From NCBI GenBank assembly GCA_030867875.1, contig JAOWCC010000577.1:145258344-145322343 (forward strand): 64,000 nucleotides of DNA, given 5' to 3'. Of this stretch, positions 1,189-63,657 are shown one piece after another. The notes under the pieces were generated by a model. The model worked only from the letters and a program-made list of their open reading frames with translations, was not told the origin of the DNA and ran no database searches. Every line of letters starts with the position of its first letter. The first letter of the stretch is position 1. The DNA is from Actinernus sp. WN-2022 (Eukaryota > Cnidaria > Anthozoa > Actiniaria > Actinernidae). The position numbers and the translations under genes were made by a program.

Positions 1189-1469
1189 TTTAAATTACAG
1201 TGCTGTTTATCTCGAGGGGCGATTCAAGGGATCCAAAGCTCTCTATTTGGACAGCACAAGGGCATTTGCTCAAGTACCTGCTGTCAATCTCGATGGAAAT
1301 TTTACCATCGCGTGCTGGATAAAATACATGGGCGCGGAAAAAAAGAATGTCATTTTGGCAGACTGGGGAATCGTACCCAACAGGTATAACTTTGTATTTG
1401 AAATCAACTGGCCTTCTGTTACATTCACGAGGAGGGCGTCAGATGGAGAAAATATATCATATGCTCTAG
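1189..1469 (+). CDS. Exon: LamG-1 domain, N-terminal part
   Basis: Open segment after acceptor tatttttatttcag and before donor gtatgt. It encodes the first two thirds of a laminin-G/concanavalin A-like jelly-roll: GSKALYLDSTRAFAQVPA, then NFTIACWIKYM (the FTxxxWIK strand), then a strand pair ending ENISYAL. Such domains bind carbohydrate, matrix or cell-surface ligands outside the cell. The exon starts with one leftover base (previous intron phase 2) and ends in phase 1. A second acceptor 12 bases downstream (exon start 1201) keeps the same frame. This is the first recognised exon of the gene. The leading strand of the domain and any signal peptide must lie upstream. Confidence 0.8.
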
Positions 1470-2392
1470 GTATGTACATTAACTTTATTCATTCAAATCA
1501 AGAGTCAATTCTTCAATTCTACTGTGCTGGTCAGATTTCCAAAGTTGGACTCTTCAGGGTTGTATATTGTTAGTATAAGAGTCACGGTTAAAGTAGGTCG
1601 GCTCAATCCCGGCTTCTGGGAAACTACCCGCCCACCCCTCCCTTGGATATGCATCGGTCTATTAATAATTAACCATTAAAGGTTGGGGTGAAGTGTGGGG
1701 CCGGTGTTTCCCAGAAATCGTGGTTGATCCGGTAGGTCCCGGTTGGCTCTTGTTTATGACGCAGTATATATGTGCGAAACAAAAAAATTGGGGGAAAATA
1801 TGTTGAATTCCTGGTTATAGCCGATTTAGAATAATCAAATAGGGAGAACATCCGGTTCGTTTTCATAAATCAAACACTAATATAGTATTTAGAGTTACCT
1901 GAATCGGTAATACCATTTTGGGCTGGAAGAATCACTCGTTGCCAATGTTGTTTTATTTATTTCCCGCTTACTCGGAAGACTACAAACCATGTGCTCCGGA
2001 ATTTTACTCGACTCCACTATTAAATGCACACCCGGATGCTTAGGGAAGCGTACCACTCAAAACGCCGTTACTGTACACGGAGTGATTCCGCGCGGAAAGG
2101 ATATGATACTGAAGTACAGTATGTTAAGCTTTGAATAAAGAGGTATGGAAAGAATGAATGCAAATTAAGAGGTAGTGTTGGACTGTTGGTTCACAACGAA
2201 ACGTCGTGTGAAATTTCTTGTGGAAACGTCGATGTGTGACGCTTCGCTTATGTTAATTAGATCATTACCTATGATGACATGTATATGACTACTAAGTCTA
2301 CTTCAGACTCATGTTTGCCAGCTGACAATAATCACTGACTTTTCTACAGTTGGTGCGTTTAACTGATCTATATTTGTCGGTCTGTTAAATAG
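1470..2392. repeat. Intron with a small inverted-repeat element (about 1595-1745)
   Basis: Within this intron ggctcaatcccggcttctgg near 1600 is mirrored by ccagaaatcgtggttgatcc near 1712, giving a hairpin element of about 150 bases that looks like a MITE. Nothing else recognisable is seen in the rest. Confidence 0.5.
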
Positions 2393-2653
2393 GTGAAGCC
2401 TTTACACCATCTGCATGGCACCACATAGCAGTAACATGGAGGGAGACAAGTGGTAATCAAAATGTTTCATTGTATAGAGATGGGTTTCTTTCCCGCCAAG
2501 TGAGTTCTCAGAAAACCTTTGCACTTGGCGTGAGTAGCGTGTGGGACATCGGTCGTGACGCCACCGATCAGTATGCATTTTATCATGGATATGTCAGTGA
2601 CTTGTTCATATATAAGAGAGAGCTGGATAATCAAGAGATCGGAAGGTTAATGG
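2393..2653 (+). CDS. Exon: LamG-1 domain, C-terminal part
   Basis: Bounded by acceptor ttaaatag and donor gtaagt, phase 1 at both ends. It completes LamG-1 with the diagnostic SAWHHIAVTW strand, then VSLYRDGFL, and finishes with YHGYVSDLFIYKRELDNQEIGRLM, the usual closing pattern of the fold. Joined to 1189-1469 it gives a complete domain of about 180 residues. Confidence 0.82.
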
Positions 2654-4674
2654 GTAAGTCAACTGATTCACCAGTCTCACTAGCTGGGAAATACTTCTTA
2701 AAATACTCCACTTATCTTGCCCTGTGTGTGTAGCGGTGGTACAATCCATTACGCGCGAACAACTTTTTTATCCGTTTAACTGTGGTAGCGGAAAGATATA
2801 TGGCCTGTGATTTTCTCTCAAAGAATAATGGTAAAATATAAAACTACACTGATCCTGGAAGAACACCATTGTTAGAGTATCACACCGTATCAGCTTTGCT
2901 GTAGTCTTCGGACTTGTTATTGTTGTCATAAAACATAAAGCCGCGAGGGGGGGAAGAAATTAGTCATCATCATGTTTCCCCAAATGTATAAATGCTGATT
3001 CGTTATAATACTATGAAACTGCATACATAAACAATTTTTAAAGTGCAAGTATAATGTCAAAAAATAAAAATATATATTGTACTATTGTGTTTGTTTCTCA
3101 CAAAAAGGTATTAATCTTGCAAATTTTGTAACATTTCTGTCATTTAATCCCTAATTTTGGTTACTTTTCATGGATCCTGTGACGTCATAAGATGAATCAC
3201 CTCCCTCCCTAGAGAAAACTACTACAATAAAATCCCGTAGGTTTTCATTGTGACATCACAAGATGAATCAATCCCGCAATTCGGGTAGCGTTTATTCTAG
3301 TTTAATTTCTGCTCCTGTCTCTGAAAGAAAACTAATTTACACAACTGAAGTATATTAGAAATAGAATTTGGGGCAAAAAGAGTTAATGTTGTTTTACTTG
3401 CACTTTAACTACTCTTTCAGGATGTTTAAATCCTGCATTTTTCAAATTTGCATTTATGCAAATTAGATTCCATCTTTTTGCAGCGGGATCTATAGTATTT
3501 GTGCTGACGATCATTTCTAAATATGTTTACTGTTTGTTTGCCGATTAGCTGCTGGAATCCCCTGCTCACTGTCGGAGTGGACTCCCTCATACCCCTCAGC
3601 ATCTGCACCATCTCCTGTCCAAACTTGTACAGAAATCTGCGCAGACGTTGGCAGTTGTCACGAGAGCCGGCCTTTTGCATACGGTATGTCTAGAGCAGAT
3701 TTCGTATAAGTGGGCAAGTTCACACCGCGGCAAAAACGTCACGCGCATGCGCATTTGATGAGCAGCACGCGCGCGTCTCCCCAGTTCCCCCCCGAAACTA
3801 AAAGAAAAACAGAAGCAATCATTTACGTGAAATCTTTCGCGAAAAACAAGAAAAGTAATTAAAAGCTAAGCCTTAGACTTTAATTAACAGGTTGAAGTTT
3901 TCTTCATTTGCAATTCACTGTGAGTTTACTAAGTTATAAAATTATTAACTAAAAACGTTTAAGACCTCGGAGACTTGTATTGAACTCCAGAGCCTTCATT
4001 CTTTCGACCAGCGGACCATAGCATTTTGCCGTGGTGCACACAGCGGTCAAACGTCTGCGCGAGCGTATTACGGTCAGTCTGGTGGGCGGCCGCGCGAATT
4101 TCCCGCGCAAAATTTACCTTAAAACTTCTACCCCCAAAAGTTAAGAAAAATACGTGAAAGTTAAGCTTTTTATTTTCACCGTCGACGGAAAATTGAACAA
4201 ACTTCAAACTGTGAGTTTACCAAATTTTTTCGTAATTTACCAAAAAAGTTCTCAAGGTTTGAAAACGGTTGTGTGAACAGTGACGGCCGCGGGCTCGCTT
4301 TGAATTTGGTTTGGAATATGTTGTTGTTGCAAGACTTTTGACGCATGCGCAGACATTTGACCGCTGTGTGGCCGTGGTGTGGAGCAAGTTACTGGCCTTT
4401 ACATTTAAATGGTTTCCCATTGTTTTTGTCTTTCTGATCCAATCAAATTACAGAGTTATAGTGCAGTAAGTTACAGTACGGTTACTTTGAGGTTACGGCC
4501 GGACATGCCGTTTTGTCCCACATATGAAATAATCTCTAACGTATCACTGGTACGTTTGATACAGCTGCTGTAGAATCGTATTCTTGTTCAAATGACTTAG
4601 GGAAGAAAAAGAAAACATAACAAGGAAGATTACGTGAAAATATATATAAAATCAGAGTTTTTTTTCTTTCCCAG
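2654..4674. other. Intron with one MITE and other repeat-like DNA
   Basis: It contains the 371-base MITE described separately at 3038-3408, then GC-richer palindromic DNA at 3700-4400 in which cagcggtcaaacgtctgcg near 4041 is mirrored by cgcagacatttgaccgctg near 4349, and at 4428-4520 a fragment resembling the element at 53446-53616. A minus-strand ORF at 3426-3680 shows no recognisable domain. Confidence 0.5.
3038..3408. mobile_element. MITE family A, copy 1
   Basis: A 371-base element with perfect 13-base terminal inverted repeats: ttaaagtgcaagt at the left end and acttgcactttaa at the right. A near-identical copy lies at 63013-63392, in the intron that splits the potassium filter. No coding capacity. 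The ends overlap TTAA, so a TTAA-type target is possible, but the flanks were not resolved. Confidence 0.8.
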
Positions 4675-5175
4675 TCGACTGTATGGGGGCTCTGCTATCA
4701 GGAAACAAAGAAAACGGCGTCATCATCAATGGTTCCTTTGGAGGCAGCGAATTTCCGGTCTACTGCGATCAATCTACGAGTGGTGGAGGATGGTCTGTTA
4801 TATACAGACGTCCTAACAACACTTGGTATTCCATGCATTCCTCTGAAGAATATAACACAGGCTTTGGGAACTACACTGGCGGAGAATTCTGGATTGGAAA
4901 TAAGAAAATTAGCTTGATGACAAAAAGACGATCTCAGCTTTTGATCAACATTGAGAATAATACTGGCTCCAAAACATATGCATTATATGACTCGTTTAAG
5001 TTGGAGAAAGATGACCAGCAATACATACTTCGAATACGGGGCTTTACAGGGACGGCTATAGATACACTGTCAGCTGATGACAATCTATATTTTCAAGCAC
5101 TTCATGTCTATTATAACTTAAGCAGAAGACATGGTGATATTAAGGGCATGGAGATGAAAATACGACCGAGGGAAG
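4675..5175 (+). CDS. Exon: truncated fibrinogen-related domain (FReD)
   Basis: A single phase 1-1 exon of 501 bases (acceptor tttctttcccag, donor gtaaga). It opens like a fibrinogen C-terminal domain: DCMGALLSG, then FPVYCDQSTSGGGWSVIYRR, then YNTGFGNYTGGEFWIGNKKI. It ends like one too: HGDIKGMEMKIRPRE. In between, the Ca-binding loop and the C-terminal Cys pair of the canonical domain are missing, leaving about 165 residues instead of about 215-220. Fibrinogen-related domains bind sugars or acetyl groups in innate recognition and adhesion. With the binding loop gone this copy may be structural or may recognise something else. Confidence 0.82.
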
Positions 5176-7740: not shown

Positions 7741-7972
7741 GTTTCTCCAGTGACTTTTCCCTATACTTCAAGTCAAACCTAACAACAAGAGACAATGTGA
7801 CGGTGGAAAACTTACCAGGATTCTCTGCCTTCACTGCCTGTGTATGGACCAAGCTCCAAGTTCCTCATAAGGGAACGCTGTTTTCTCTGACGTCTGTGAA
7901 TTACAACTGTCATCTAAAATTCGATATCTTGCGGAGTGGATATGGGATGAATTTCAAGTTCAATATGTCCAC
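7741..7972 (+). CDS. Exon: pentraxin-like domain 1, N-terminal part
   Basis: It encodes SSDFSLYFKSN, RDNVTVENLPGFSAFTACVWTK and LKFDILRSGYGMNFKF. The order and spacing (a membrane-distal strand, then AFTACVWTK with a conserved Cys) fit a pentraxin, a Ca-dependent lectin-type jelly-roll found in secreted and neuronal recognition proteins. The exon start at 7741 uses the AG of ttaaaaag and keeps phase 1. A downstream AG at 7749-7750 would give the wrong phase after the FReD exon. The exon ends in phase 2 before gtaaga, the same internal phase as in pentraxins 2 and 3. Confidence 0.75.
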
Positions 7973-8828
7973 GTAAGAATAACCGAAATCTTACAGCATA
8001 TACAGTGATTAGACTGCCCAAGATACCTTAGAGGAAATTACTGATTGATAATTAATAATAATTATCTTGTATTCTGAAAGTTTTGTTTCTAAATATCAAT
8101 GATAGAATTTGAATCCATGCTTCTCAAATTCATTAATAATTAATGAGGTCAACAACCAATCAGGTCATCCCATTGCGGTCAGGTACATGTACCTTGATGC
8201 ACGATGAAACTCCACATGAAGATGTGAGGATGCATCTTGATCTCCAATCAAATGACAGATGAATCTTGATGTTCAATGAAACGCCAGATCAAGGTTGCTC
8301 CGATTAGTTCAAACACTGATCAATACACTTTTAATAATCATTTTAATAAGCATTGCATCACAGGAATGGCGAGAAGTAAAGGAAAAGAATGAAATAAAAA
8401 TCCACGTCTGGAGTGTGACTCGAACCTCGCGTGCAACCGGCTGCTAGCCTCTGTCTTATCCACTACACTGTCAGTCCTGTTTGTTGAAACGTTCATGAGA
8501 AAATAACAATCACAGCCCTTGTAGTCTATAATTGCATGCCGAAGCGGCCTCGTGCTTTCATCTGTTCTCGGTGTTTGGATCGCCTGGTGAAACACTAGCT
8601 CTCGTTTTTGATCTATTATTACATCAATAGCTAAGCAGTATAACTGGGGCCTATTTGCATTTGGAAACAACCGTTCACGAAAATGGCACCTCTCAATAAA
8701 TGTTGAAACTACTGACATAGTTATGTATCGACGTTTAAAAACTTAAGTTTGTTGGTCCTTTTTTTCTCACGTTTGCAATTTATAAATAACTATAATCTGC
8801 AAGAATATATGACGTATTATTATTGCAG
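7973..8828. other. Intron with a tRNA-like SINE remnant
   Basis: Apart from the tRNA-like element at 8345-8480 nothing recognisable is seen. Confidence 0.4.
8345..8480 (-). mobile_element. tRNA-derived SINE-like element, third type
   Basis: On the minus strand tagtggataagacagagg resembles an A box and, about 35 bases further, gaggttcgagtcacactcc is a B box. A cloverleaf-like head followed by unrelated DNA points to a tRNA-derived SINE rather than a tRNA gene. A longer minus-strand ORF over it (8338-8718) has no domain. Confidence 0.5.
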
Positions 8829-9226
8829 GATTGCCATTGAAACGGATCAGGCATTTGACGATGAGTGGCACCAATTTTGTATCACCTGGCAAAACCGTGG
8901 CAAAATCGCATTTTACAGAGATGGTAAAAAGCAAGGAGAGAAAGATGAGAAAAGCGCTAGTACTGACGCATTCAGACCAGGTGGGACTCTCACTATTGGC
9001 AAGCTAAAGAGAAGTAACGATGACAGTTTACACTATCCAAAGCATACCATAACTGGACAACTGGGGCACTTCGACTTATGGGACTTCGTACACCCGGAGC
9101 ACTTTATTGTTTCGTATGCAAGAGGTCCTGGTTCAGTATCGGGAAATATCGTACCTTGGGCCATTATAAGACCTTGGGTGTCAGGAAAAGTACAAATGAT
9201 CTATCCTTCCTCGTGCAAGTTGAAAG
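8829..9226 (+). CDS. Exon: pentraxin-like domain 1, C-terminal part
   Basis: It starts in phase 2 after ttattattgcag and ends in phase 1 before gtaaac. It encodes DEWHQFCITWQNRGKIAFYRDGKK, the paired Cys strand of pentraxins (FCITW), a GGTLTIGKLK strand, ITGQLGHFDLWDF, and the closing SGKVQMIYPSSC seen in all three pentraxins of this gene. Together with 7741-7972 it gives about 210 residues, the normal pentraxin length. Confidence 0.83.
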
Positions 9227-10292: not shown

Positions 10293-10490
10293 AGTCCTAC
10301 CACTGGGGTTATAGTAAAGGAAATAGCACGGTACTCATCGATGATATGAAGAGCAAACAAGCAACGGTGGATGGTGGACGACTTACCTCTGACAAGGAGG
10401 GGCTCATCATCGAAAGTGATAACTATGTGGATATACCAGACGTATCAGGAAAAAGTGGGTTGTCAATGTCATTCTGGATAAGACAGGGAG
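10293..10490 (+). CDS. Exon: LamG-2 domain, N-terminal half only
   Basis: A phase 1-1 exon (acceptor ttgttcctatag, donor gtacgt). It encodes the opening of a LamG/ConA-like domain: SYHWGYSKGNSTVLIDDM, then LIIESDNYVDIPDVSG, then SGLSMSFWIRQG. It stops just after the FWI strand. The next exon in genome order is the start of a TLDc domain, not the rest of LamG. A matching C-terminal LamG half is found 8.3 kb downstream at 18749-19102, after TLDc-1 and both discoidins. No other completion was found in 10491-11242. Confidence 0.75.
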
Positions 10491-11242: not shown

Positions 11243-11473
11243 TTCTAATTTCTAGTATCCTTGGAGACAATTCTCAATATTACAAACATCTAAAGACCTG
11301 GCTAGCTTCGTTCATCCCAAGTTACGCATCTTGGATCCAGTGCTACTCGTCCAGAGATGACGGATGGCGGTTATCTGTATTTCATGATAAGTGTGACTAC
11401 AAAGGTCCGACTATCACTATCATTAGGGTCGGGCAGTACGTGCTTGGTGGAGTTATGGATCAAAGTTGGGGAG
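11243..11473 (+). CDS. Exon: TLDc domain 1, N-terminal half
   Basis: A phase 1-1 exon starting after gttcttatcag. It encodes LISSILGDNSQYYKHL, then the TLDc signature WIQCYSSRDDGWRLSVFHDKC, then KGPTITIIRVGQYVLGGVMDQSW. TLDc (TBC, LysM domain catalytic) modules in OXR1, NCOA7 and TBC1D24 are intracellular and linked to oxidative-stress resistance and V-ATPase binding. Here the module sits between LamG, discoidin and MAM domains, so it is most likely extracellular, which is unusual. The alternative AG at 11254-11255 gives the wrong phase, so 11243 is preferred. Confidence 0.82.
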
Positions 11474-12582
11474 GTGAGCATTTTCGTGGGCAGTTAAACC
11501 GTTGACATTTTGTTTTATGTACGGCTATTTTGAAAGTTGTTTTGTTGCTTTGTATACATCGCATATTGCATTGTACATATTGCATATTGCACGGCGCACA
11601 TGGTGCATTCCAAGAACAAAATGCATTGTCGGTGCCGGTGTTCGTTCAGTGATGTACGTGTGTGTGTTATAACTATCTTTTTAAAGAATTATTTTTGGCA
11701 TGTGTTGAATCCTGTCTTGACAATGAAATATGCACAACGTTGCAATGTGCACGGTTCAAGAGACAACCTTTTTCGCAATAGGTGTATGGTAAATGTTGAA
11801 GACGTTTTTTGGCAATCTTGGCAAATGGCCTTTTATATCGAGTCATTTGCTCGTAATGAAAAGATCGAGAGTTTTGTGTGGTGGGACGCAGTACTGGACG
11901 TAACTTAAGAAATAAAAATACCTTACAGTTATTAGGCCCATATGCGCATACGGACGTCTACAAACGTCTATGGACGTATGGACGTCTACAAATACTACCT
12001 TAGGAATCATCAATGTGGAATATTTGATGTTAAACGTTATGTCATTTTTAACATGTGCACATTCGTTTGACCAAAACGCTAAAAAGTTTTGGTTAACATA
12101 TACCTCTTATTAACCGAGTGTGAGGACCGATTTTCCCCCCTTTTTGAGGCTATTTGCTATGCAGATATGCCTCTGTGTCATCGTATTGTGGGTCTGTGGG
12201 TCAGATTGGATCATGTGGATGGCATGCCCCTAGCCGCGAAGGACTGGGGAGCGAGCAATTATGAAAATAGCCTCCTGTACGTTTGACGTACCTATGTTTT
12301 TATGACCCAAGCTGCGAGTAAAAAGGAGGAAAAACGAGGATCCATAACTAATTGTACGGACCGAGCAAACGATGTTAATAAGATATTTATTATATGGTTT
12401 CTTCGGTTTCTTTAAGACCGGAAGTGAGCGGAAGGTCCGCACGGGAAGTCATGGACCTCAAATTGACCAATCATAGCTCGCGAAATTACTTAGCCCATAA
12501 TAATAACTGAATATGCTGCAGTGTCTCCTTCCCACAGAGATTGTTGTATCCACATCTTAGCTTTAGTTTCAAACAGTTTCAG
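11474..12582. other. Intron, no recognised element
   Basis: It contains short internal repeats such as tgcatattgcacggcgcacatgg-like AT/GC steps near 11570 and repeated ggacgtctacaaacgtctatgg-like units near 11950-11995. No coding exon or typed mobile element was recognised. Confidence 0.35.
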
Positions 12583-12906
12583 GATCTGCTGGATATCTTC
12601 CAAGTTCTTTGGCATTCTTATTTACCCTGAATAACCCATACAATATCGAGCCATCTCAATTCCTTATAAACCCGAAGAAAACACAAATGGCTGGACGCAC
12701 CAATAGTTTCTTGGGGCCGAACTTTGGCTCTGGAGACCTTGTTATGTATGAGGGTACTGATGGCCGCTTTAGTTGTTCCAGTGAACTTGGGAACAGCTAT
12801 ATTATACCAGAGGACATCACAAGGCGAGCAAACGGCAGTAAAAGCCTCTTATTAGCTGGTAGTCGTTGGTTCTTTCCAGATGAAGTTGAAGTATTTTATT
12901 ACAGTG
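12583..12906 (+). CDS. Exon: TLDc domain 1, C-terminal half
   Basis: Acceptor aacagtttcag, donor gtgagt, phase 1 at both ends. It encodes LAFLFTLNN, the GPNFGSGDLVMYEG turn, and the closing SKSLLLAGSRWFFPDEVEVFYY, which strongly matches the TLDc C-terminus (F-x-x-x-E-V-E-V-F). Several earlier AGs were rejected because in-frame stops (12558, 12564) follow them. The intron position inside TLDc-1 is the same as the point where TLDc-2 is interrupted. Confidence 0.83.
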
Positions 12907-13209: not shown

Positions 13210-13496
13210 CCCGCAAGTCTCCACTTGGTATGGAGTCAAGACAGATTCCTGACAGTGCTGTAACTTCGTCTTCATTCGTACCACAAGAGGGAGCACATCT
13301 TGGTCGACTCAATGGGCCAAAAGCCTGGTGCGCAGGAGCGCAGAACGATGAACAGTGGCTGGAGGTTAAACTTGGACAGATCGTGTCAGTTACACACATA
13401 GCAGTACAGGGCAAAACAGCAGATAGATACGTGAAGTCATATTATGTCAGCTACGTCAATATTACAAGCTATAGCGGTTGGATGAAAGTCCCAAAG
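13210..13496 (+). CDS. Exon: discoidin (F5/8 type C) domain 1, N-terminal part
   Basis: It starts in phase 1 after ccggactgttttag and ends in phase 0 before gtaaat. It encodes LGMESRQIPDSAVTSSS, GRLNGPKAWCAG, DEQWLEVKLGQIVSVTHIAVQGK and VKSYYVSYVN, the classic order of a coagulation factor 5/8 C domain that binds phospholipid, sugars or matrix. The first Cys before LGME found in most members is absent here. Confidence 0.88.
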
Positions 13497-15754: not shown

Positions 15755-15896
15755 GTAAGTATATGATTAATAGTTTGCTGCAAGAGGGAAACATTAAGTT
15801 TCATCTTGTGAAACAAAAATCTTTCTGATAAACGAATCCTTTGTTTAACAAGTAAATACGCAACATGGTTTAATGCTTCTCTAACATTTCATTAAG

Positions 15897-44265: not shown

Positions 44266-44313
44266 TCTCCTTCGGATTTGTATAAAGTATTTTAACGTAC
44301 GGCTTTTTTGCAG

Positions 44314-49760: not shown

Positions 49761-50029
49761 ATAAAACACCTAAAATATGTAGTTTCATTTTGTTAACAAC
49801 TCACCAACATTTCTTCAAATTGAGACTATAAGTAAATAAATGCTCACTGATTTCGATTTTGACGTTCTTTATGCCCGACGTGTGCACACAACTTGAAAAG
49901 CCCTAATATTAGACAAACTCCTCTCAGAAATGGCTGTTGCATCGTGGTATTTCACAATGCAGGCAACAAAAGTACTCCGCGATCCGATTGGTTGACATTA
50001 ACGATTAAGCAAACATCCGGGTCAATAGG

Positions 50030-50265
50030 TCACACCATTCCCGGGAATTCTCGGGAATATTCAGACAAATGTTTTTGTTACGTAGACTCCCGAGAATTCC
50101 CTATTATTCTCGAGATATGATTATTACGTATTTCATCAGTTCAAATTCGTTACCGGGAACTCCCAGGAATTCCTAGGTCTCTCAAAAATCAAACATCAAA
50201 CTTGGGAATTCTCGGGAATTCTTGGTAATTCTCGAGAATTCCCGGGAATTGACGCTTTCTTGGGA
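50030..50265. repeat. gaattc-rich palindromic repeat
   Basis: Many overlapping units of (c)gggaattctcgggaatt type with both halves inverted relative to each other. Shorter relatives lie near 45945-45985 and 48150-48185 in the same intron. Confidence 0.6.
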
Positions 50266-50497
50266 AAATACGGGTACTCAATTCGCCTGGGCTGTGACTG
50301 CGCGAGTTATGTTTTGATGATTATAATAAGTGAGCGATTTCCTTTGTTGTAGTTATTTCTTTAGGTTATTTTATATACGGTATACGCTGCATCTCACTTA
50401 GTGGCATTGCGTAAAAGTAAGCAATTGCTGTTGGTAATGTTACAATAATTATTCTACATAAAAGATTGAATCATTTCAACTGTGTTTTTTATCGCAG

Positions 50498-50833
50498 CCC
50501 CTTCCGAAGCACCTGCAAACGTTAGGGCGTTCAACGCAAGCTCGACAGCAATAACTATTACATGGAATGCACCGTCAATAGACACCTTAAACGGCATCCT
50601 TCGGTATATCGTTATCAACTATCAGGAGTCAAAGGCTGGTAATTCCTCGAGTTACGTGAAAAAACTTCCTGTAGGTGGTGGTTCATCGAGGCGAAGGAGA
50701 TCTGTGGACAGCAGTAGGGAAGTCACGATTACTAACCTAAAGAAGTTCACTACATACACCGTCCGAGTGGCTGCATTTACAGTTGCACAAGGACCTTTCA
50801 GCGCAGCAAGAAATGTTACGACAGATGAAGATG
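50498..50833 (+). CDS. Exon: FN3 domain 5 with RRRR furin-like site
   Basis: A 336-base phase 1-1 exon (acceptor ttttttatcgcag, donor gtaaga). The FN3 fold is clear: PSEAPANVRAFNASSTAI, TITWNAPS, GILRYIVINYQES, LKKFTTYTVRVAAFTVAQGPFS. Between strands C' and E sits an insertion GGGSSRRRRSVDSSRE (RRRR codons 50689-50700) that is absent from the other nine FN3 domains. RRRR-S fits the furin consensus R-x-K/R-R, so the ectodomain may be cleaved in the secretory pathway into two chains held by the FN3 fold. Cleavage is inference. Confidence 0.9.
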
Positions 50834-51727
50834 GTAAGACTAGGATGTACTTGATAACCTTTATTACTGTTTGCATTCATGAGCTTGCAATTATTGCCCC
50901 GTCGTTTGTTAACAAGGGAATGGGCCTTTCGCAAGCAAGACTTGCTAGTAAATGCTATTTTCCACCTCCAATCGATTGTCGATCTTTCTAAAACTAGCTC
51001 AATTCATTCGTTATTTGAAGTGATATATCAGCACGTGATTATTTCCTGAAAAAGGCCTGTAGCATGACTTCTGTAGGGCACATTGTTTATTTGCGCCCTT
51101 GTAGTTCTATTGGGGAGCGGTGCAGCAAGGAGCGCGAATAAACAATATGTCCAGACAAAATTATTACTATTATTATCATAATATACAAGGCCAAGTTACA
51201 TAACAATTCAAACGGCAAGATATCTGATAAAGCTTTTATTTAGCCGTTTCATACAATATGTTCTGAACATTAGCTATAGCTGTTATCAGGCCCGTCTAAT
51301 TGCACGTCATCATATTGTATGAATTGTTTCAATTATCCAAAAAACGGAAAACTACTCATGAAGTAAAATCTGAAGCAAAAGGTTTGAAATAGCTTCGCCT
51401 GAGGATGAACTGAAGAAGTCTCATTGCTAATCAAGAATCAGACGATGAGCTCGTAGCGAATAAGAATCAGGGCTGCACACTTATTTGCGACCCGCCATTC
51501 GCGCGCGTTTTTACCTTTGCTGCGTGATAATGCACGTGAATAAATTCACAGTACGTAAACAAACCACTACACCTGTTATGAGAAAAAAAAAATTAGATTG
51601 CATGTTGCGAACATATCCCTATATTTCCTGATTCTAACTTTGTTAACAGTATTTTAATGTTGTCAAATAAATTCGCTTCTAACGTTTTCGAAACGTTTAA
51701 GAAACCGTTATTTTTCTATACCCCCAG
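50834..51727. other. Intron with family C MITE copy
   Basis: Begins with MITE family C copy 2 (about 50925-51060). The remainder has no recognised content. Confidence 0.4.
50925..51060. mobile_element. MITE family C, copy 2 (internally deleted)
   Basis: Shares atgctattttccacctcc, aatcgattgtcgatctttct and ttcattcgtta with the 62.7 kb copy, but lacks about 60 bases between tctaaaac and agctcaattcattcg. Confidence 0.6.
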
Positions 51728-52027
51728 TTCCAGATGCGCCTCCTCCAGACTTGAAAGTGACCAACACCAGTTCCACATCAATAGCACTATCCTGGAAGCC
51801 TTTGTTGCCTTCATATAGCAACGGCATATTAACTGGCTACGTCGTACTATACCACGAGGCTGATAATTCAAGTGGAATGGCCATAGTGATAAAAATGACT
51901 ACCAAGGACTTATCAATAGAATTAACGAGCTTAAAAGTCTACACAAAGTACGATATTAGTGTAGCGGGATACACTCGAAAGGGAAGAGGAAATACAAGCC
52001 ACGTACAGAGCATCACTGATGAAGGAG
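51728..52027 (+). CDS. Exon: FN3 domain 6
   Basis: A 300-base phase 1-1 exon (acceptor tatacccccag, donor gtgagg): PDAPPPDLKVTNTSSTSI, ALSWKPLLPS, NGILTGYVVLYHEAD, LKVYTKYDISVAGYTRKGRG. Closest in pattern to FN3 domains 3, 8 and 9 (NGxLxGYxVxY). Confidence 0.9.
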
Positions 52028-52747
52028 GTGAGGAACATGAGGCGTTGAAATGTTCGAGCATGCGCACGACAACAGCTTTATGTCAAGTACCGTTGCAACA
52101 ATTCACTCAACTTGAATCATTGGTTAAAAGTATTTTTTATTAGCTATTGTAAATTGTAGCGTACTCCTACAGTGGGCAACTAATGTTTGGCTGGAAGTTC
52201 TGATTACAAACTAAGCTCTGTACTAGAATACTTCCATTGAAAATCATCCTTATTAAATTGAAGCGCTTTAATTGCAAGCTATAAGGTAGAGCTAACACCA
52301 ATTTAAACGTTAGCACCAAATAAGAATCATACGCAATTTATTATTCATCATGAAAGACACCTAAAACTTTTAAAACGTTTTAAAAACTTTGTTTCACCAA
52401 AAATGGCTTCATTGAAAGTGGTTTGTATTTGAATGATCGTTAGCCATAGAAAGGAGAATCTGCCTTGGCCTTGTTAAACCCAGTTTCAGGATCATGCGCA
52501 GTTGTACAAATCCTGTGTTTATTTGGCGGGCAGGTATATGTTAAACAATGGTGGCCCGCAAGCTGAACCAAAGGATTAATTTTGTATAACTGGGCATGAT
52601 CCTGAAACTGGATTATTAGGTTATTAGGTGCTCCAACGAGCTCTGGGCACGAGACTGGTGTTCTTTTAAACCAATGCTGTTATTTTTCATTCAAAAGCAT
52701 TGTTTACTGAGGGCTTTACTCTTTTTTAAATTTTAATTTATTTTCAG
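52028..52747. other. Intron with a hairpin element
   Basis: 52476-52612 is an inverted repeat: acccagtttcaggatcatgc against gcatgatcctgaaactggat. Confidence 0.5.
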
Positions 52748-53044
52748 TACCAACTGGTCCTCCTCTTAATTTAACCGCAAAAGCCTTAACGACGACAAGC
52801 ATTCTACTCACATGGCTCTCAGTTGCTAGGATACACAGACAAGGTGTTATAACACGTTATCATGCCGTACTTTACAACGCCGCGGGTTCATATGTCAACA
52901 ATCAATCTATCGATGGGAATGATCTAACCGCAGTCTTCAAGGATCTAGAGGTTATGAAAAATTACAAAGCTAGGGTTCAGGCCTTCACACAAAAGGGTGC
53001 TGGTCCCTTCAGTGTGTTCATCAACGCTTCAACTGGAGAAGAAG
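52748..53044 (+). CDS. Exon: FN3 domain 7
   Basis: A 297-base phase 1-1 exon (acceptor ttattttcag, donor gtacta): PTGPPLNLTAKALTTTSI, LLTWLSVARI, GVITRYHAVLYNAAG, LEVMKNYKARVQAFTQKGAG. Not opened by an ATG, so it is easily missed by start-based ORF scans. Confidence 0.88.
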
Positions 53045-53789
53045 GTACTATAGAGCGCATTATTTCATGGTTATGAGTGACATTTCAAATGCGTGAGCGT
53101 TACCTCTCATAACACTATTATACAATGTATAACAAACTTAATATTTGTAATACCTAACTCCAAGATGTTATGGTGATTCTCCATGCATACATGAACCTTT
53201 CTGAAATATTTTCAGTTGTTGATTTGAGTTACTGATACTATGAGTTCAGTCATGATTTCCAGTTTTGCTTGCTAGAGTTTCTTGAATTTAAGATATACGC
53301 TTTCTTCAAAGACGGTCCGGCGATGGGAGATAAGAAAATTAATGGGATTTTGATATTACACAATATATATTTTGTATGAAACATTGAGATACAGTCACTA
53401 GTTTTAACAACCTTGGACCCTATTTATTAGATCAGATTTCGTAAGAGTGGGACAAACACGGTGAACGGCAATGCACACGGCAAAGGTTACTGTACGGCAT
53501 GCTGTGACATTGAAATGGGTTCCCTATTGTTTTTGTCCTGCTGATCCAATCAAATTACAGAGTTACGGCACAGTAAGTTAAACTGAGTAAGGTTACATGC
53601 CGTAGTTTGTCCCACTAAAAAATATGTTATTTGTTATAGCAGGCTGAGTATTACAGCTTACAGCAGACGCTGGTGGGGGCCTGCTTTTACTCCTCGCACA
53701 CTCCCCACTACATTCACTAAACTCGACTCACGGTTGACGAAATCTGCTCCAACTCTCACTATTTACCTTTTTATTAATCTTACTAATAG
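53045..53789. other. Intron with a MITE
   Basis: Holds the element at 53446-53616. A long pyrimidine run precedes the FN3-8 acceptor. Confidence 0.4.
53446..53616. mobile_element. MITE with agtgggacaaac termini
   Basis: Perfect 12-base terminal inverted repeats, agtgggacaaac and gtttgtcccact, 171 bases apart. The interior shares gatccaatcaaattacagag with a fragment at 4428-4520. No coding capacity. Confidence 0.78.
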
Positions 53790-54086
53790 CTCCGAACATA
53801 CCGCCTGCCAATGTCACGGCCCACGCGACAGGAAGTACCACAGCACATATTACCTGGAGCAACATTGTACTCTCATTGCGCGGGACGATTCGTGGATATC
53901 GCATCGTCTACTACGAGATCAGGCATCCGTTCTCACTAGTAAAGGACAAAACTGTTCCGTACTCAGAAGTACAGGCAAACTTAACCTCTCTTTATATGAA
54001 TACGCGATATGCAATAAAGGTGGCTGCCTTCACCACAAGCGATGGAAACTTCAGCGACCCTGTATTTATTACTACAGAAGAAGGAG
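53790..54086 (+). CDS. Exon: FN3 domain 8
   Basis: A 297-base phase 1-1 exon (acceptor ttaatcttactaatag, donor gtacgt): PNIPPANVTAHATGST, AHITWSNIVLS, GTIRGYRIVYYEIRH, LTSLYMNTRYAIKVAAFTTSDG. A long overlapping ORF in another frame (53734-54159) is a shadow. Confidence 0.88.
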
Positions 54087-56306
54087 GTACGTATACAGTA
54101 TGATCAGCTCGGACGATTTTCATGAAGTTTCACGGACTATCTTTAAAGTATATATATAAGCCCTAGCCAATTATCTTTGATTTAAAAGTCAAACTGAAAT
54201 GACCGACATAGCAAAGAATATATAATTATAGTCTGCTAATTTGGATTAATAAGGACTCAAATTTCAATGTCATTTAAGGGATAGCCTAACTATTGTTCCT
54301 TTTGCTCAGTTTTTATGTCAACTCACTTATTAAAAGATCATTCTCTCAGACTGTAAGTATCAAATGTTTGACACCTGAAAAACAACTGAATCTGATGAAG
54401 ACATTCGATGTTATAGCTCATTTAATTTTCAACTCGGCCATTAGCCTTAAATGATGTCATTTCAAGGATTTGTAATGCTTCTTATAGCAATACTACGACT
54501 ATAAATTGGCCAAAAATGGTTGAACAAGATGATTTCTGGCAAGATGATTTCTGGCTAGGACTTATAGGCACTTTAAAGAAATACTTCAGCGAGTGTGTTT
54601 AAGTGAGGCCCTTTAGGGGGTATTCATGTCCCCTGTCTGAGTTTCAAAACTATTCGTGTCATAGTCTCGGAAGGTGGACATGTCATGTCGCTGTAGGAAT
54701 TTCGTCTATTGTTTTCTTATTTCTCTCTGTCGCTCTCGCAATTTCATACGTTCATCGTTATTTCATGTTCGTCGTTATTTCAGCAACGAATTTACGGCCC
54801 TAAAAGAGCCCAATTGACCTATTTAAATCGATCGTTGCTAGGGAAAGTTTGTAGCCTCGTAAAACCCGGAAAATTAAAGAGTGGGCAATAACTATTGAAA
54901 GGTGACTCCTAGGGTAAAGTCTTGAAGTCTGATGACGCATTAAGTGACGTCATGATGACGTCATCAAAATCTATAAATTTCTAAACTCTCCAAGGATTTT
55001 TAATCTACTAGTGATTTATGAATATTTTCCGAACCTACGAATTAATGCGCATAAAACCGAGCATGCGTTTGCCATTACGACAAAAAAAATAAGATTTTAC
55101 GACACTTTTCACTCCAATTTTAAGCTTTTTGGCGAATAAAAAGCCATAACTTTGGCATTTATTGTCGGTTTCCAAAATCCATGCTCTGAATTTCTAACGA
55201 GACCTGAAACAACCATGGCGCTGATCAAAGCCAGGTTCCGGCTTTTCCACAGATCGAATTGGAATTTAGAGTGCTGGTTTTTGCGCCGGAGGGAGGAAAA
55301 CCGGAGAACCCGGAAAAAACTCTCTGTGCAAGAGTGAGGTACCAACAAACTCAATTCACATATGGCGCCACGTCCGAAAATCGAGCCTGGGCCACAGAGG
55401 TGAGAGGCGAAGCGCTTAACCACTGCGCCACCCTAGCTCCCCTGCTCTGTTTTGTGGAGAACGTGGTCAACAACATTTTAACGGGAAAAAGTTTGGTGTT
55501 TACTGAAAGCGCGCTAAATGTTTAGGATTTTTAGAAACCGGAAGTGAAGAAATTAACGCATGCGCAAAAGTGCCTGTTTTGTGGTCGTGAAATAGTCGCG
55601 GAACTGTTGTTGCAGTAAAGTCTACAATAATTGGTCGAACAGGATGTGCATTTTCTCCTATTTCCTCTGACAATGGCCAGTTTTGGGACTTGGCTGAATA
55701 CTCCAGTCTTGATTGTCGGCAATGAGCTTCGGAACCCATTTCGCGGTAAACCGAAGAGCCAATATAAATCAAGCTAAAATTAGACCGAGATTCGACAAAT
55801 TTCATTTGAAGTTGAATCTCGTGGCGTTCACAATAGTTTGTGAAACATGTTTTATATAAGTACTTTCTGCTCAATTCACATTCAAATATACTAGGGAGAA
55901 AAGGTCGGCAACTCCTCGCCATTCTTGTGACAAAACAGAAAAGGAAATCGTCAATATCGCGGAAACTAAATAAACTCAAACACAATTTCAACACCACACA
56001 AAGAAAACCAATGACGAAACTACCTTCGTAGCGAAACATATGAGTCGAATATCTCAAGACGCGATTGTTTTGGGTAAGTTGTCAAGTACATTACGGCTTC
56101 GCGGATGAGGCTTGAGTTAAGGTTGACCCAGCGCAGTCCTGGGCACGAGACCAAACACTCTCTTACACGTCTTACCCTACTTGGGAGATGAAAGTTGTTT
56201 CACCGAACAAATAAACAGACCCCACTATTGCCAGGTCGCCGTTTGTTCAGTTTCCAATAAATACTTTTGAATGAAATTCTGATACTAACATCGATGTGAT
56301 TTGCAG
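54087..56306. other. 2.2-kb intron with SINE family 2 copy
   Basis: Contains tgacgtcatgatgacgtca at 54946-54964 (paired CRE-like palindromes) and the SINE copy at 55197-55440. A 185-residue minus-strand ORF at 55500-56057 has no recognised domain and no splice or codon evidence. Confidence 0.45.
55197..55440 (-). mobile_element. SINE family 2, copy D
   Basis: Best preserved tRNA-like head of the family: on the minus strand gtggcgcagtggttaagcgc (A box) and caggctcgattttcgg (B box). Body with gagacctgaaacaacc, cagatcgaattggaattta and accaacaaactcaattcac on the + strand. Confidence 0.75.
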
Positions 56307-56600
56307 TTCCAGGTGCTCCCCCAAGCGGCATCGAGATCTCAGTTCTAGGCCCAACCGCTATATCTGTAGTATGGGATCCAGTTCACCCTGGCTACCGTAA
56401 CGGTCTCATCACTGGATACCGAGTGCAGTATAGGGAATCTGTGTCGAGTTTGGATTCCTTGGTGACAAAAGTGATTCAGTCGACTGGTGTTAAACTGACT
56501 GAACTGCGCAAGGCAACAAGTTATCAAATACGGGTCGCAGCATCGACCAAGAAGGGATATGGAATAGAATCTGTAAATACTGTCTCAACAGGCGAAGATG
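56307..56600 (+). CDS. Exon: FN3 domain 9
   Basis: A 294-base phase 1-1 exon (acceptor tgtgatttgcag, donor gtatgg): PGAPPSGIEISVLGPTAI, SVVWDPVHPG, NGLITGYRVQYRESV, LRKATSYQIRVAASTKKGYG. The usual core Trp and tyrosine corner are present. Confidence 0.9.
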
Positions 56601-57718
56601 GTATGGCATCGATTCCTAGTCTTTAATTAGTTGCCAATGAAGATCATCTTGATTCACTTCTTTGTGTTGTTTTCACTTCTCTCCTGGTTTTCAGAACAAT
56701 GTAGAGGTACCAAACTGACGGTACAATAATAATAATTTTCTTTTAGTCATTAGCACTATTGTTGTAGTCCTTTGGGACCTTCACGGGTCGTATATAAACC
56801 ACTCCTTGTCATAATCACACCACTTGACGTCGCAACCAGCCTTCGTTTTGACCGGCCTTTTTTTTAGATTTCAATTTACATTGTTTATTTGTTATTTACG
56901 TAAATTGACAGGCAATTATTGCATGGTCCTTCCTTGAAAGATTTTGTCTAGCCTTAACGTTCAGTGTTACCGTTTAGATCCAACTTTGTTTTCCACTGTA
57001 ATTTAGTACCTGTAACCTCCAAAAGGTGGTGCTGCAGCATTGGGTTGGAGTACACATTCCAAAAACATTTCCCTGCGGGGGTTTTAACTGGTTTTCGTGT
57101 CCGGCTGAGCACGTTAGTTTTTTTTCTGTATGAACGTGACTATTAATGTATTCATGACTTGACATCAATTGTAATTATTTATCCTAGCTACCTTAGCCAA
57201 TAAACGACTGCTGGGCGACTCCCTCCACCTGTCTCATTGTGCTGTATATCATAGAAATGTTTTCTATTCGGCTGAGCGCAGCGAAAGAGAATAGAAACTT
57301 ACTTAATCTAATGAAAATGACGGCACTAAAGAGCCGATCAGACTGCGAGTTTGTCAAACGTCGGTTGTTAATTTGTGTTTGCTAAAACACGATAGCTAGA
57401 AGCCTTTAACTCATAGTTTAAATGTTGATTAATACCCCTAGAAATCAGTTGAACTGATATCTACATAGGATAATTAAGTCTGCATAATGACGTTACGAGC
57501 GTTAGCCCTTCGTCTTTCGCTCTGACAAAGGACTAATGCTCTAAAACGTCAGCTGCTACTCGCTTCTCGCGTCAGTTAGCATACTTCAATCGAATTCTAG
57601 TTGATAATACCAGTGTTTATCTTCCTTGTCGACACAGACCAATACTTTAGGTTTTACAGCAACTAGGCATCCATTGTATCGTCAAACTAATGGTAAATCC
57701 GCTTTTTTGTCCACGTAG
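56601..57718. other. Intron with an inverted relative of the 44.7 kb repeat
   Basis: 57480-57640 contains gcgttagcccttcgtctttc and cgtcagctgctactcgcttc, reverse-complement relatives of 44670-44785. Otherwise no recognised content. Confidence 0.45.
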
Positions 57719-58021
57719 TTCCGAGTCATGCCCCAATCAATATTACAGCACGAAACAGAACCAGTCTCCATACAATTCCTGTGTCCTGGAAACCGGTACC
57801 ATGGCAACACATGCACGGGACGCTGACTGGTTATCACGTCGCCTACACTGCGGTTAAAGTAGGAGACAAGGAGGTGTCTGGGAACGAATGGCTTGAACAC
57901 CGCCTGCCAGCTGCTGATACGTCAGTGATTTTAAATGGGCTGCAAGCACTGGCTGTTTATAGAATTGAAGTGTCTGCCACGACACGAAAGGGGCGTGGTC
58001 CTGCTGCGATCACCTTTGGAG
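57719..58021 (+). CDS. Exon: FN3 domain 10
   Basis: A 303-base phase 1-1 exon (acceptor tttgtccacgtag, donor gtaggg): PSHAPINITARNRTSLHTI, PVSWKPVPWQ, GTLTGYHVAYTAVKVG, LNGLQALAVYRIEVSATTRKGRG. The last FN3 before the channel part. It joins in phase 1 to the Cys-rich exon at 58441, linking adhesion and channel regions in one frame. Confidence 0.9.
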
Positions 58022-58440: not shown

Positions 58441-58658
58441 AGACTTGTCGATGTAAGAAGCGTCTCACAACAAACTGGAGAAAGTACGAGCCGTATGTGA
58501 ACATCAGTAGTGATGGAGTGCCTGGTTTCATTATTCCAGTCATGATACGCAATATGGTGTCTTACTGCTGTGGCACGTGTGTAGCGCATGGCGAATCAAG
58601 TGTTGATTTCACTGTAGATGGAAAAAACAAGACTGCCGAGAAGAAAACCATCGACGAG
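58441..58658 (+). CDS. Exon: membrane-proximal ligand-binding-like domain, first part
   Basis: Phase 1 start after catgctttgttaacag, phase 0 end before gtaaat. It encodes TCRCKKRLTTNW, NISSDGVPGFIIPVMIRNMV, SYCCGTCVAHGESSVDFTVD and KNKTAEKKTIDE. This stretch lies between the FN3 stalk and membrane segment M1. Pattern GFIIPVMIRNMV...CC-x2-C-x3-GESxVDF is what I associate with the region before M1 in orphan two-segment channels of marine invertebrates, and it may be a degenerate half (S1-like) of an ionotropic-receptor ligand-binding lobe. This is a recollection and inference, not a database result. Four to five Cys suggest disulfides or metal binding. Confidence 0.72.
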
Positions 58659-60490: not shown

Positions 60491-60736
60491 GTTCTACTCG
60501 GTATCGACGGAACGACAGATTTCAGTTTTCCTGTCCATGGCTATAAAGAACAGAAAACGTACAAAGGAGGTCTGGGCTACACAGCTATGGTTGAGTCACC
60601 TGGAATAGCGTTTGTCGTTGGCCAAAGCACGGCGGAGATCAAGTCTGCTATGTTCAAAACTGTACTCGGCAGCTGGCCTGTGATAGTGCTACCAATGGTC
60701 ATGGCATATCTCGCGGGTATCATCATATGGATAATG
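60491..60736 (+). CDS. Exon: membrane-proximal domain, second part, and M1
   Basis: Phase 0 at both ends (acceptor cattcttctttcag, donor gttagt). It encodes VLLGIDGTTDFSFPVHGY, KGGLGYTAMVESPGIAFVV, then a hydrophobic segment SWPVIVLPMVMAYLAGIII followed by WIM, the first membrane segment (outer helix) of the channel. The DFSFPVxGY and VESPGIAFVV text connects the extracellular lobe to M1. Without splicing at 60737 the frame continues for 21 codons to a stop at 60800-60802, so intron retention would yield a one-membrane-segment form without pore. Confidence 0.83.
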
Positions 60737-61426: not shown

Positions 61427-61521
61427 GAAACTTCGATCAATCCAGGACACTTCCCGCCATCGTTCCTAGGAGGGATATGGGAAGGCATTTGGTGGTCTTT
61501 CGTTTCCATGACAACAGTAGG
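61427..61521 (+). CDS. Exon: pore helix and start of potassium selectivity filter
   Basis: A 95-base exon (acceptor cctctacctctag, donor gtaagg), phase 0 start, phase 2 end. It encodes ETSINPGHFPPSFLGG, IWEGIWWSFVSMTTVG: the turret, the pore helix with the WEGxWWxFVSMTT pattern, and the first half of the filter. The last two bases GG pair with the first base of 63501 to make the Gly of TVGYG. The neighbouring frame holds a longer ORF (61390-61632) that is only a shadow. Confidence 0.9.
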
Positions 61522-62910: not shown

Positions 62911-63012
62911 ATTCAGTACACAAAAACTGTATAAAATTATATATACTATATATATACTACATATTATATCTAAAACTAAACTACATATCCTAAAACACTA
63001 TTAATAGCAATA

Positions 63013-63392
63013 TTAAAGTGCAAGTATAATGTCAAAAAAATAAAACCTTATATTGTACTGTTGTGTTTGTTTCTCACAAAAAGGTATTAATCTTGCAAAT
63101 TTTGTAACATTTCTGGCATTTAATCCCTAATTTTGGTTACTTTTCATGGATCCTGTGACGTCATAAGATGAATCACCTCCCTCCCTAGAGAAAACTACTA
63201 CAATACAATCCCGTAGGTTTTCATTGTGACATCACAAGATGAATCAATCCCGCAATTCGGGTAGCGTTTATTCTACTTTAATTGCTGCTCCTGCCTCTCA
63301 AAGAAAACTAATTTAGACAACTGAAGTATATCAGAAATAGAATTTGGGGCAAAAAGAGTTCACGTTGTTTCATGGCTTTACTTGCACTTTAA
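63013..63392. mobile_element. MITE family A, copy 2
   Basis: A 380-base copy of the element at 3038-3408 with the same 13-base inverted ends ttaaagtgcaagt and acttgcactttaa. The copies differ by scattered substitutions and a short indel near the right end (catggctt). Confidence 0.82.
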
Positions 63393-63500
63393 TTAGTCGT
63401 CTTCTCTCATAGACTATAGAAAGAGTACGAATATGCCCAGATAGAAATAGCTGAAAGTGCGGTTAACTGAAATCGGAATACTATATTAAATTTGTCTTAG

Positions 63501-63657
63501 GTACGGCGACCGAGCTCCTCTCGGCGGCGTGGGGCGAATATTTGCAGTTTGCTGGACTCTGACAGGGATTGTGATTGTATCTTTAACAACTGGAGTTTTG
63601 ACATCTGCGCTGACAAAGATAACCATGAAAAGTGAGGCACGCATATATGGATCACAG
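63501..63657 (+). CDS. Exon: end of potassium filter and M2
   Basis: A 157-base exon (acceptor aatttgtcttag, donor gtaatg), phase 2 start, phase 0 end. It completes the filter as GYGDRAPLGG, then encodes the inner helix VGRIFAVCWTLTGIVIVSLT followed by TGVLTSALTKITMKSEARIY. TTVGYGD is the canonical potassium filter. The SLTTGVLTSALT segment at the bundle crossing resembles the SYTANLAAFLT gate motif of ionotropic glutamate receptors and the equivalent part of prokaryotic GluR0-type channels. The gene continues beyond 63657. A stop has not been reached. Confidence 0.92.

Follow-up and report, generated by a model that had tools for sequence, protein, structure and literature searches.

Gene structure and domain content

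The window, i.e., the whole stretch of 64,000 nucleotides of Actinernus sp. WN-2022 DNA that was analysed, contains 41 forward-strand exons within positions 1189–63657, which splice into a single open frame (10,807 nt, 3,602 codons, no stops); all splice junctions are AG/GT and 29 of the 40 are in phase 1. The open frame bears out the original prediction of about 40 exons joining in frame. An ab initio chain, trained on 20 exons chosen by eye from the same window and using preset splice weights, comprised 40 exons; relative to the 41-exon model, 36 exons were exact, two had one boundary off, three were missed and two were extra. BLASTP aligned the 3,602-aa product end to end, in a single match each, with predicted proteins of Nematostella (P0015, 4,084 aa) and Actinia (P0016, 4,107 aa), and a tblastn search with P0015 yielded 39 collinear forward-strand pieces covering window positions 1187–63660. 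The window likely carries most of one giant gene; approximately 249 N-terminal residues, the S2 lobe, a further membrane helix and the tail lie outside it.

Table 1. Features of the window (position 1 is the first letter of the 64,000-nt stretch).
Feature	Positions	Strand	Evidence
LamG domain A, exons 1189–1469 + 2393–2653	1189..2653	+	Laminin_G_3 E 7.4e-18; P0015 aa 249–424
FReD (fibrinogen-related) exon	4675..5175	+	Fibrinogen_C E 4.8e-29; only profile positions 4–147 of 221
Pentraxin-like domain B, exons 7741–7972 + 8829–9226	7741..9226	+	Pentaxin E 1.1e-10
LamG domain C, first half	10293..10490	+	alone no Pfam match; scored jointly with 18749–19102
TLDc domain 1, exons 11243–11473 + 12577–12906	11243..12906	+	TLD E 3.6e-17
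Two discoidin (F5/8C) domains, exons 13210–13496, 15616–15754, 15897–16237, 17396–17540	13210..17540	+	F5_F8_type_C E 9.9e-42, 2 stretches; exon ends set by fit to P0015
LamG domain C, second half	18749..19102	+	Laminin_G_3 positions 42–150
MAM domain, exons 20591–20722, 22093–22343, 22802–22919	20591..22919	+	MAM E 1.2e-25
TLDc domain 2, first half	23981..24214	+	TLD positions 15–81
Two pentraxin/LamG domains inside TLDc 2, exons 25077–25299, 26298–26644, 27799–28084, 28649–29034	25077..29034	+	Pentaxin E 6.7e-28, 2 stretches
TLDc domain 2, second half	29458..29742	+	TLD positions 79–166, E 0.017 alone
EGF-like exon	29922..30026	+	inspection; 63% identity over 35 aa to P0015 aa 2254–2288
LamG domain F, single exon	33039..33683	+	Laminin_G_3 E 7.7e-10
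SEA-like domain, exons 34443–34561, 36071–36135, 37625–37767	34443..37767	+	weak Pfam SEA, E 0.018, below cut-off
Ten FN3 domains, one exon each, starts 39118, 40162, 43565, 44314, 50498, 51728, 52748, 53790, 56313, 57719	39118..58021	+	fn3 E 1.7e-118, 10 stretches
FN3-5 with furin-like RRRR-S site	50498..50833	+	motif scan
S1 lobe, first exon (CxC...CxxC)	58441..58658	+	profile/alignment comparison; phase-1 junction right after FN3-10
Rest of S1 lobe, pre-M1, M1	60491..60736	+	63% identical to P0015; secondary structure of homologue models
M1-P linker and pore helix up to filter	61427..61521	+	Ion_trans_2
Rest of filter (GYGD) and M2	63501..63657	+	68% identical to P0015 aa 3788–3840

A Pfam scan, run on pieces joined by eye, recovered most of the predicted domain list (LamG, Fibrinogen_C, Pentaxin, TLD, F5/8C, MAM and ten fn3), the exception being the EGF-like exon, for which the window scan gave no Pfam match. 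Features not on that list are the furin-like site, the SEA-like exons and two interrupted domains, one a TLDc domain and the other, likely, a LamG domain. The predicted TLDc domain 2 is split by inserted domains: its joined halves match TLD positions 15–166 of 170 (72.8 bits), and the order of the pentraxin/LamG insertion is identical in P0015 and P0016. This split is firmer than that of LamG domain C, whose joined halves cover Laminin_G_3 positions 4–150 of 151 in the window (36.9 bits; 30.1 for the second half alone), score 45.0 bits by Pfam in P0018 and have no Pfam match in P0015. In a custom profile test, shuffled first halves reached the joined score in 0/300 cases for the window, 2/300 for P0015 and 1/300 for P0016, and in 295/300 for P0018; on these results, the interruption of LamG C by an insertion of TLDc and two discoidin domains is graded only as likely.

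The last SEA-like exon of the window opens with a K-G-S-V motif, as found by a motif scan. The P0008 segment (9.6e-8) and P0009 (5.3e-6) pass the Pfam cut-off for SEA, and the P0016 and P0019 segments stay below it. Counting only matches inside the SEA stretch, the G-S-V/I motif is present in the window and in 10 of 26 homologues; in PMC6954182, the autoproteolytic SEA motif is given as GSVVV or GSIVA. Judging from the sequence, the window likely has a SEA domain with a G-S-V motif, and autoproteolysis is predicted. The Nematostella orthologue has G-K-V instead, so self-cleavage is not essential in all relatives. By tblastn coordinates, the furin-like site falls in the same FN3 domain in P0015 and P0016; R-x-[KR]-R matches outside this FN3 loop (in P0003, P0004, P0010, P0015, P0016, P0017 and P0023) were not counted.

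The end-to-end alignment of the product with one predicted protein each from Nematostella and Actinia makes the fusion of an adhesion ectodomain and a channel core in one protein very likely real at the sequence level. The domain order, which was to be looked for in other cnidarians, is present in both anemone orthologues, each holding the whole set within a single predicted protein, and the claim of one polypeptide was upheld. A misreading of two or more adjacent genes as one, with an adhesive secreted protein encoded upstream and an FN3-channel protein downstream, is very improbable; unrelated phase-1 neighbours would also join in frame, and the annotation of some relatives (P0001, P0022) comprises FN3 domains and the core alone, but the full order recurs in two anemone proteins, the split TLDc domain links exons 17 and 22, the likely split LamG domain links exons 6 and 13, and inspection of P0012, P0017 and P0018 revealed LamG, the SEA-like stretch, FN3 and the core in that same order. 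Both P0015 and P0016 are predicted proteins, and an annotation error shared by them is possible.

The 18 matches other than these two orthologues carry different adhesive ectodomains and/or FN3 domains on the same core. Family ectodomains reach approximately 3,900 residues (P0018), and the named family members among the matches listed all belong to stony corals or anemones. The database searches required shared words; one scored 7,997 candidates, and the best 120 of 133 were considered, with lengths of about 267–849 aa, a range below that of the longer animal glutamate receptors. The tree was built from 25 family rows (without P0003, P0004 and the fragment P0027), 10 of 27 GluR0-type rows and P0039; P0039, P0051 and P0024 form long branches, and the placement of P0039 is unsure. 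A literature search of open-licence papers found no description of such a protein among the matches listed.

The ionotropic-receptor core

The channel part had been described as a two-segment potassium-type channel preceded by an extracellular lobe. Pfam detects Ion_trans_2 in the window (E 1.3e-12), but the two-segment description does not hold: in the orthologues, M2 is followed by a second lobe (S2), a further membrane helix and a tail, and M1-P-M2 forms the central part of an ionotropic-receptor core. The predicted lobe is present, and it is now identified as S1. The window thus encodes the first part of such a core (S1-M1-P-M2), with a periplasmic-binding-protein-like lobe preceding M1.

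A profile comparison over S1, the pore and S2 indicated a match to GluR0-type potassium receptors; with S1 alone, the comparison with GluR0-type proteins gave no usable match (probability 0.3). The Lig_chan score of the window is 23.9 bits vs. the Pfam curated cut-off of 30.8; P0001 (32.7) and P0009 (34.3) exceed this cut-off, P0006, P0007 and P0012 lie below it, and at E up to 1 all ten core rows (10/10) match. A fold comparison of two homologue models revealed the GluR0 ligand core and NMDA/AMPA receptors. In these models, the lobe before M1 and the lobe after M2 fold together like the ligand-binding domain (LBD) of GluR0 and animal glutamate receptors; the window itself contributes only S1, M1, P and M2. 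Outside its core, the P0006 model is of poor quality, and its S1 is of mixed quality (mean pLDDT 56.8). The 50 Foldseek rows listed for P0001 are FN3-type or related proteins and include no ionotropic receptor; such receptors come up on re-ranking of the fold matches.

The PDB sequence matches are potassium-channel pores (the best 60 of 259 and the best 60 of 473), as would suit an ordinary two-segment channel of the KcsA/Kir type joined to an unrelated extracellular piece. This explanation is scarcely credible, since those matches span the pore only, M1 is preceded by FN3 and S1, the orthologues continue past M2 with S2 and a further helix, and the lobes as well as the membrane helices of ionotropic receptors are included in the fold match. 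It was dropped once S2 had been recognised in the orthologues, the pore of a two-segment channel being flanked by cytoplasmic ends only.

For the FN3 part of P0001, the top fold matches are LAR, PTPRD and contactins. LAR-type receptor phosphatases, contactins and sidekick resemble the family in their FN3 arrays; none of them is known to have a channel core. P0002–P0004 are labelled as sidekick by the source database.

Filter and ligand-site residues

The window filter TTVGYGD is created only by splicing, the Gly codon being divided by an intron (61521/63501). T[VL]GYGD occurs in the window and in 26/26 relatives, five of which have TLGYGD, confirming the potassium-type filter that had been predicted; this count is partly a selection effect, because the relatives were found with the core as the query, P0002–P0004 are isoforms and P0025 is nearly identical to P0026. 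The Thr and Asp columns on the filter side are invariant across 27/27 family rows and 27/27 GluR0-type rows. This conservation, together with that of the filter motif, argues against a relic pore, i.e., an adhesion protein retaining a non-conducting, channel-like membrane anchor; such a reading might find encouragement in the wide variation of the ectodomains between relatives, and we regard it as improbable.

Aligned S1 residues differ from those of GluR0-type proteins. In GluA2, Arg485 is the S1 arginine for the α-carboxylate (PMC6307864); the corresponding column, equated with Arg485 from its position ahead of the DF.HP stretch, contains R in 24/27 GluR0-type rows, and R or K in 0/27 family rows. 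A canonical glutamate site is rejected for S1 on this ground; as far as the aligned residues suggest, canonically bound glutamate is an unlikely ligand, if there is a ligand at all. At two more polar S1 positions, where GluR0-type rows have D (27/27) and T (24/27), the family reads S or T in 18/27 and Q in 13/27 rows. Glutamate receptors have an acidic S2 residue at position 705 (PMC6307864); in the family, an S2 Asp, which lies outside the window, is invariant in 10/10, 18/18 and 21/21 rows of three row sets, stands opposite an Asp of GluR0-type rows in the profile comparison and was not singled out in the 27 + 27-row alignment. The SYTANLAA motif, named for glutamate receptors in PMC3483616, is not found by eye after the pore in the window, which reads TTGVLTSALT there.

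An alternative is a potassium receptor gated by a small molecule, with an amino acid or another metabolite in the two-lobed domain triggering pore opening and the adhesive ectodomain serving only to position the channel; with the arginine column devoid of R and K and the two polar columns altered, we consider it possible but rather doubtful. Animal glutamate receptors carry an amino-terminal ANF_receptor domain. No Pfam match to this domain was found in the window pieces scanned, which begin after the approximately 249 N-terminal residues outside the window, and FN3 occupies its place.

Relation to known receptors and possible mechanism

Bacterial GluR0-type receptors, including GluR0, share with the present family the order S1-M1-P-M2-S2, the TxVGYG filter, the LBD fold and the M1-P linker (NPxxF...WW...TMTTVGYGD); unlike the family, they have no adhesive ectodomain, keep the S1 arginine (24/27 rows) and, in PMC12332018, are described with two transmembrane segments, whereas a further helix is present in the anemone orthologues. 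The rotifer Adineta vaga has AvGluR1, which is comparable through published descriptions: excerpts of PMC12332018 and PMC3483616 attribute to it a eukaryotic ionotropic-receptor layout with a potassium filter, as in the present family, but the architecture given there is that of eukaryotic glutamate receptors, with an adhesion array unmentioned in those excerpts. Animal ionotropic glutamate receptors (AMPA, kainate, NMDA, epsilon) resemble the family in the fold of the LBD and membrane domain and in the helix that follows S2 in the orthologues; they differ in having a Q/R/N site where the present family has a potassium filter, and the family lacks the S1 arginine and, by Pfam, ANF_receptor. 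The adhesion GPCRs GPR126 and ADGRG4 also combine a large adhesive ectodomain and cleavage sites with a signalling membrane core, and, according to PMC6954182 and PMC10687090, both have pentraxin and GPR126 has SEA; the window protein has pentraxin-like domains and likely SEA. Their core, however, is 7TM, and no GAIN or 7TM domain was matched by Pfam in the window pieces and homologues scanned. The likeness of the window protein to adhesion GPCRs is one of working plan only, not of membership.

On balance, we lean towards an adhesion receptor whose engaged or pulled ectodomain would open a predicted potassium-selective pore. As in GluR0, the channel would consist of four subunits, its lobes lying outside the cell and its filter close to the cytoplasm. 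No spacer separates S1 from the last FN3 domain, and force or binding at the ectodomain would therefore reach the two-lobed gate. After SEA self-cleavage at G-S-V and furin cleavage, the outer array would be retained by non-covalent contacts and could be shed or torn away. Hyperpolarisation of the cell would follow from the potassium current, and outside contact or pulling would be turned into an electrical signal. Self/non-self recognition or nematocyte signalling, as originally suggested, may be among the roles. More speculatively, and with rather low confidence, hexacorals may have an expanded class of "adhesion ionotropic receptors", i.e., GluR0-type potassium channels that have abandoned glutamate and are gated by contact or tension via shuffled, self-cleaving ectodomains, perhaps hyperpolarising the cell when it touches matrix, microbes, symbionts or adjacent tissue.

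According to PMC12332018, GluR0 and AvGluR1 both have a potassium-channel filter; the former is seen there as a primitive precursor of glutamate receptors, the latter as a presumed intermediate in evolution. The proteins described here add an animal family with a GluR0-type filter, without the glutamate-carboxylate arginine and with adhesion ectodomains. Two questions become testable. One is whether adhesion or force, in place of a small ligand, can drive the gate of an ionotropic receptor; the other is by what means anemones and corals perceive contact. If the proposed mechanism is true, evolution would have reached the plan of adhesion GPCRs (adhesive array, SEA, cleavage, signalling core) twice, the second time with a channel as the core.

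Exon model and evidence for a single gene

The original prediction of about 40 exons joining in frame is borne out by a 41-exon model, built from an ab initio exon chain and fits to homologues, in which every junction is AG/GT and the 3,602 codons obtained after joining contain no stops. The ab initio chain comprised 40 exons, of which 36 are exact in the final model, two are off at one boundary and two were discarded, and three exons of the model are absent from the chain; this agreement is only partly independent, because the splice weights were assumed values and the training exons were chosen by eye within the same window.

Search 2, made with a joined query of 3,361 residues and scoring on the ionotropic-receptor core (S1-M1-P-M2-S2, present in the window from S1 to M2), revealed two predicted orthologous proteins with the window's domain set, P0015 (Nematostella vectensis LOC5501224, 4,084 aa) and P0016 (Actinia tenebrosa LOC116307107, 4,107 aa). 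A tblastn comparison placed 39 collinear pieces of P0015 and 36 of P0016 on the window, and BLASTP covered residues 1-3602 in one match with each (42% for both). Compared with P0015, the window lacks 245 C-terminal and 249 N-terminal residues, the latter containing, by eye, a signal-like start and then a LamG-like domain.

Exon 17 carries one half of the TLDc 2 domain and exon 22 the other, and two pentraxin-like domains lie between them. When joined, the TLDc 2 halves correspond to TLD positions 15-166 of 170 with a Pfam score of 72.8 bits, versus 40.8 and 15.5 bits for the halves scored inside other pieces, and TLDc 2 of P0015, joined likewise, scores 48.6 bits; since this domain is split between both exons, it ties them into one gene. 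TLDc 1, which is intact, has an intron at roughly the position of the TLDc 2 split (by eye). TLDc 1 and two discoidin domains likely interrupt LamG C, whose halves would lie in exons 6 and 13; the split-LamG control failed in the coral relative P0018. The proposal of one polypeptide is upheld by the end-to-end matches to two single anemone proteins and by the TLDc 2 tie, and, judging from sequence, the exons very likely belong to one gene.

Features of the window and adjoining observations
Feature	Position	Strand	Remarks
Whole feature	1189-63657	+	
FReD exon	4675-5175		Fibrinogen-related match ends at profile position 147/221; C-terminal third unseen in exon
SEA-like domain	exons starting 34443, 36071, 37625	+	Weak by Pfam (E 0.018)
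90-bp unit, 13 copies	36356-37531		91% matches; most of intron between SEA-like exons 2 and 3
S1 lobe	58441-58658		CxC and CxxC cysteines invariant in 10/10 core rows; possible disulphides or metal site
MADF DNA-binding domain	343-633	-	Pfam E 2.1e-13; upstream of the feature
ORFs	31335-31652, 43973-44188, 44958-45281, 46955-47206	-	Resemble reverse-transcriptase remnants by eye; no support in Pfam scan

Receptor core and its relatives

Search 1 gave 14 matches and search 2 gave seven, six of them new; among the matches listed, search 3 added at least six filter-bearing relatives (P0021-P0026) and P0027, a 215-aa fragment without the T[VL]GYGD filter. All relatives with a stated source, among the matches listed, are from stony corals or anemones, and their database labels include 'uncharacterized protein' and 'sidekick-2-like'. 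Precomputed Pfam lists and Pfam scans indicate that the same core is combined with varied ectodomains (CUB-Ig, TSP1, EGF, C-type lectin, MAM, LamG and others), with PF00059 and PF00008 among the families. P0024 (Actinia, 501 aa) is short and has a signal-like start and the core, with no adhesion domain by Pfam; it is possibly a simple form of the family and convenient for expression.

The core tree, containing 25 family rows, 10 GluR0-type rows (bacterial potassium-filter receptors) and P0039, separates the family from all the others (99/99). The window groups with P0015 (100/94), next with P0016 (97/93) and next with three coral rows (99/95). P0039 is a TTVGYGD receptor of 545 aa in which, by eye, a lobe precedes M1 and a helix follows near the end; its branch is very long and falls outside the hexacorals.

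The window and 26/26 relatives carry T[VL]GYGD; these relatives were retrieved by searching with the core, and some are not independent of each other. Five of the 26 (P0001-P0004 and P0022) have the TLGYGD variant. The core is, with little doubt, of the ionotropic-receptor type, and its pore is predicted to be potassium-selective, which we regard as probable. In PMC6307864 the residues named as key to backbone binding are Arg485 and, at position 705, an acidic one. In the joint alignment, GluR0-type rows keep the S1 arginine (24/27), whereas the 27 family rows, some of them with a partial or divergent S1 (e.g., P0012, P0013 and P0014), have no R in that column (Y 15, F 7, G 2, D 1, H 1, L 1). 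The S2 aspartate is invariant in three overlapping alignments (18/18, 10/10 and 21/21 rows); therefore, half of the amino-acid site may remain, and canonical glutamate binding by the family is unlikely.

Glutamate receptors with a potassium-type filter are represented by GluR0 and AvGluR1 (excerpts of PMC12332018 and PMC3483616), and GluR0 of cyanobacteria has been described (PMC13099474, in part). Animal ionotropic glutamate receptors, including those of cnidarians, have been surveyed (PMC12226733, PMC6307864); the portions available mention no potassium-filter cnidarian member, with 'GYG' absent from the former and 'potassium', 'selectivity filter' and 'GluR0' absent from the latter. No description of an adhesion-ectodomain potassium receptor was found among the literature matches listed, which comprised titles and the starts of abstracts, mostly from open-licence literature.

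Predicted cleavage sites and proposed mode of action

Pfam detection of the SEA domain is also weak in P0016 (E 0.0048) and the relative P0019 (0.0014), and clear in the relatives P0008 (E 9.6e-8) and P0009 (5.3e-6). A motif scan found G-S-[VI] at the SEA site of the window and 10/26 homologues. Excerpts of PMC6954182 state that SEA domains bearing GSVVV or GSIVA cleave themselves and that the halves remain associated, force being likely to part them. In P0015 the motif reads G-K-V instead of the G-S-V of the window and Actinia; the Nematostella orthologue may thus have lost the ability to cleave itself. The motif scan also revealed a furin-like RRRR-S in FN3-5, at the identical place in P0015 and P0016; a furin-like site likewise occurs within one FN3 of P0017, P0018 and P0025. 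Both SEA and furin cleavage of the window product are predicted.

The protein would assemble as a tetramer, as in ionotropic receptors, and its ectodomain would attach to a surface or matrix. Tension or binding would reach the S1 lobe, because FN3-10 runs into S1 without a spacer in the exon model; transmitted via FN3-10, it would shift the lobe and open the pore. The SEA and furin sites would allow release of the outer part of the ectodomain. Given one gene, an ionotropic-receptor core and potassium selectivity, gating by adhesion or force is a tentative suggestion. The account as a whole, an adhesion receptor whose ectodomain controls a potassium pore, leads among its rivals and is modestly favoured; the resulting potassium outflow would quiet the cell.
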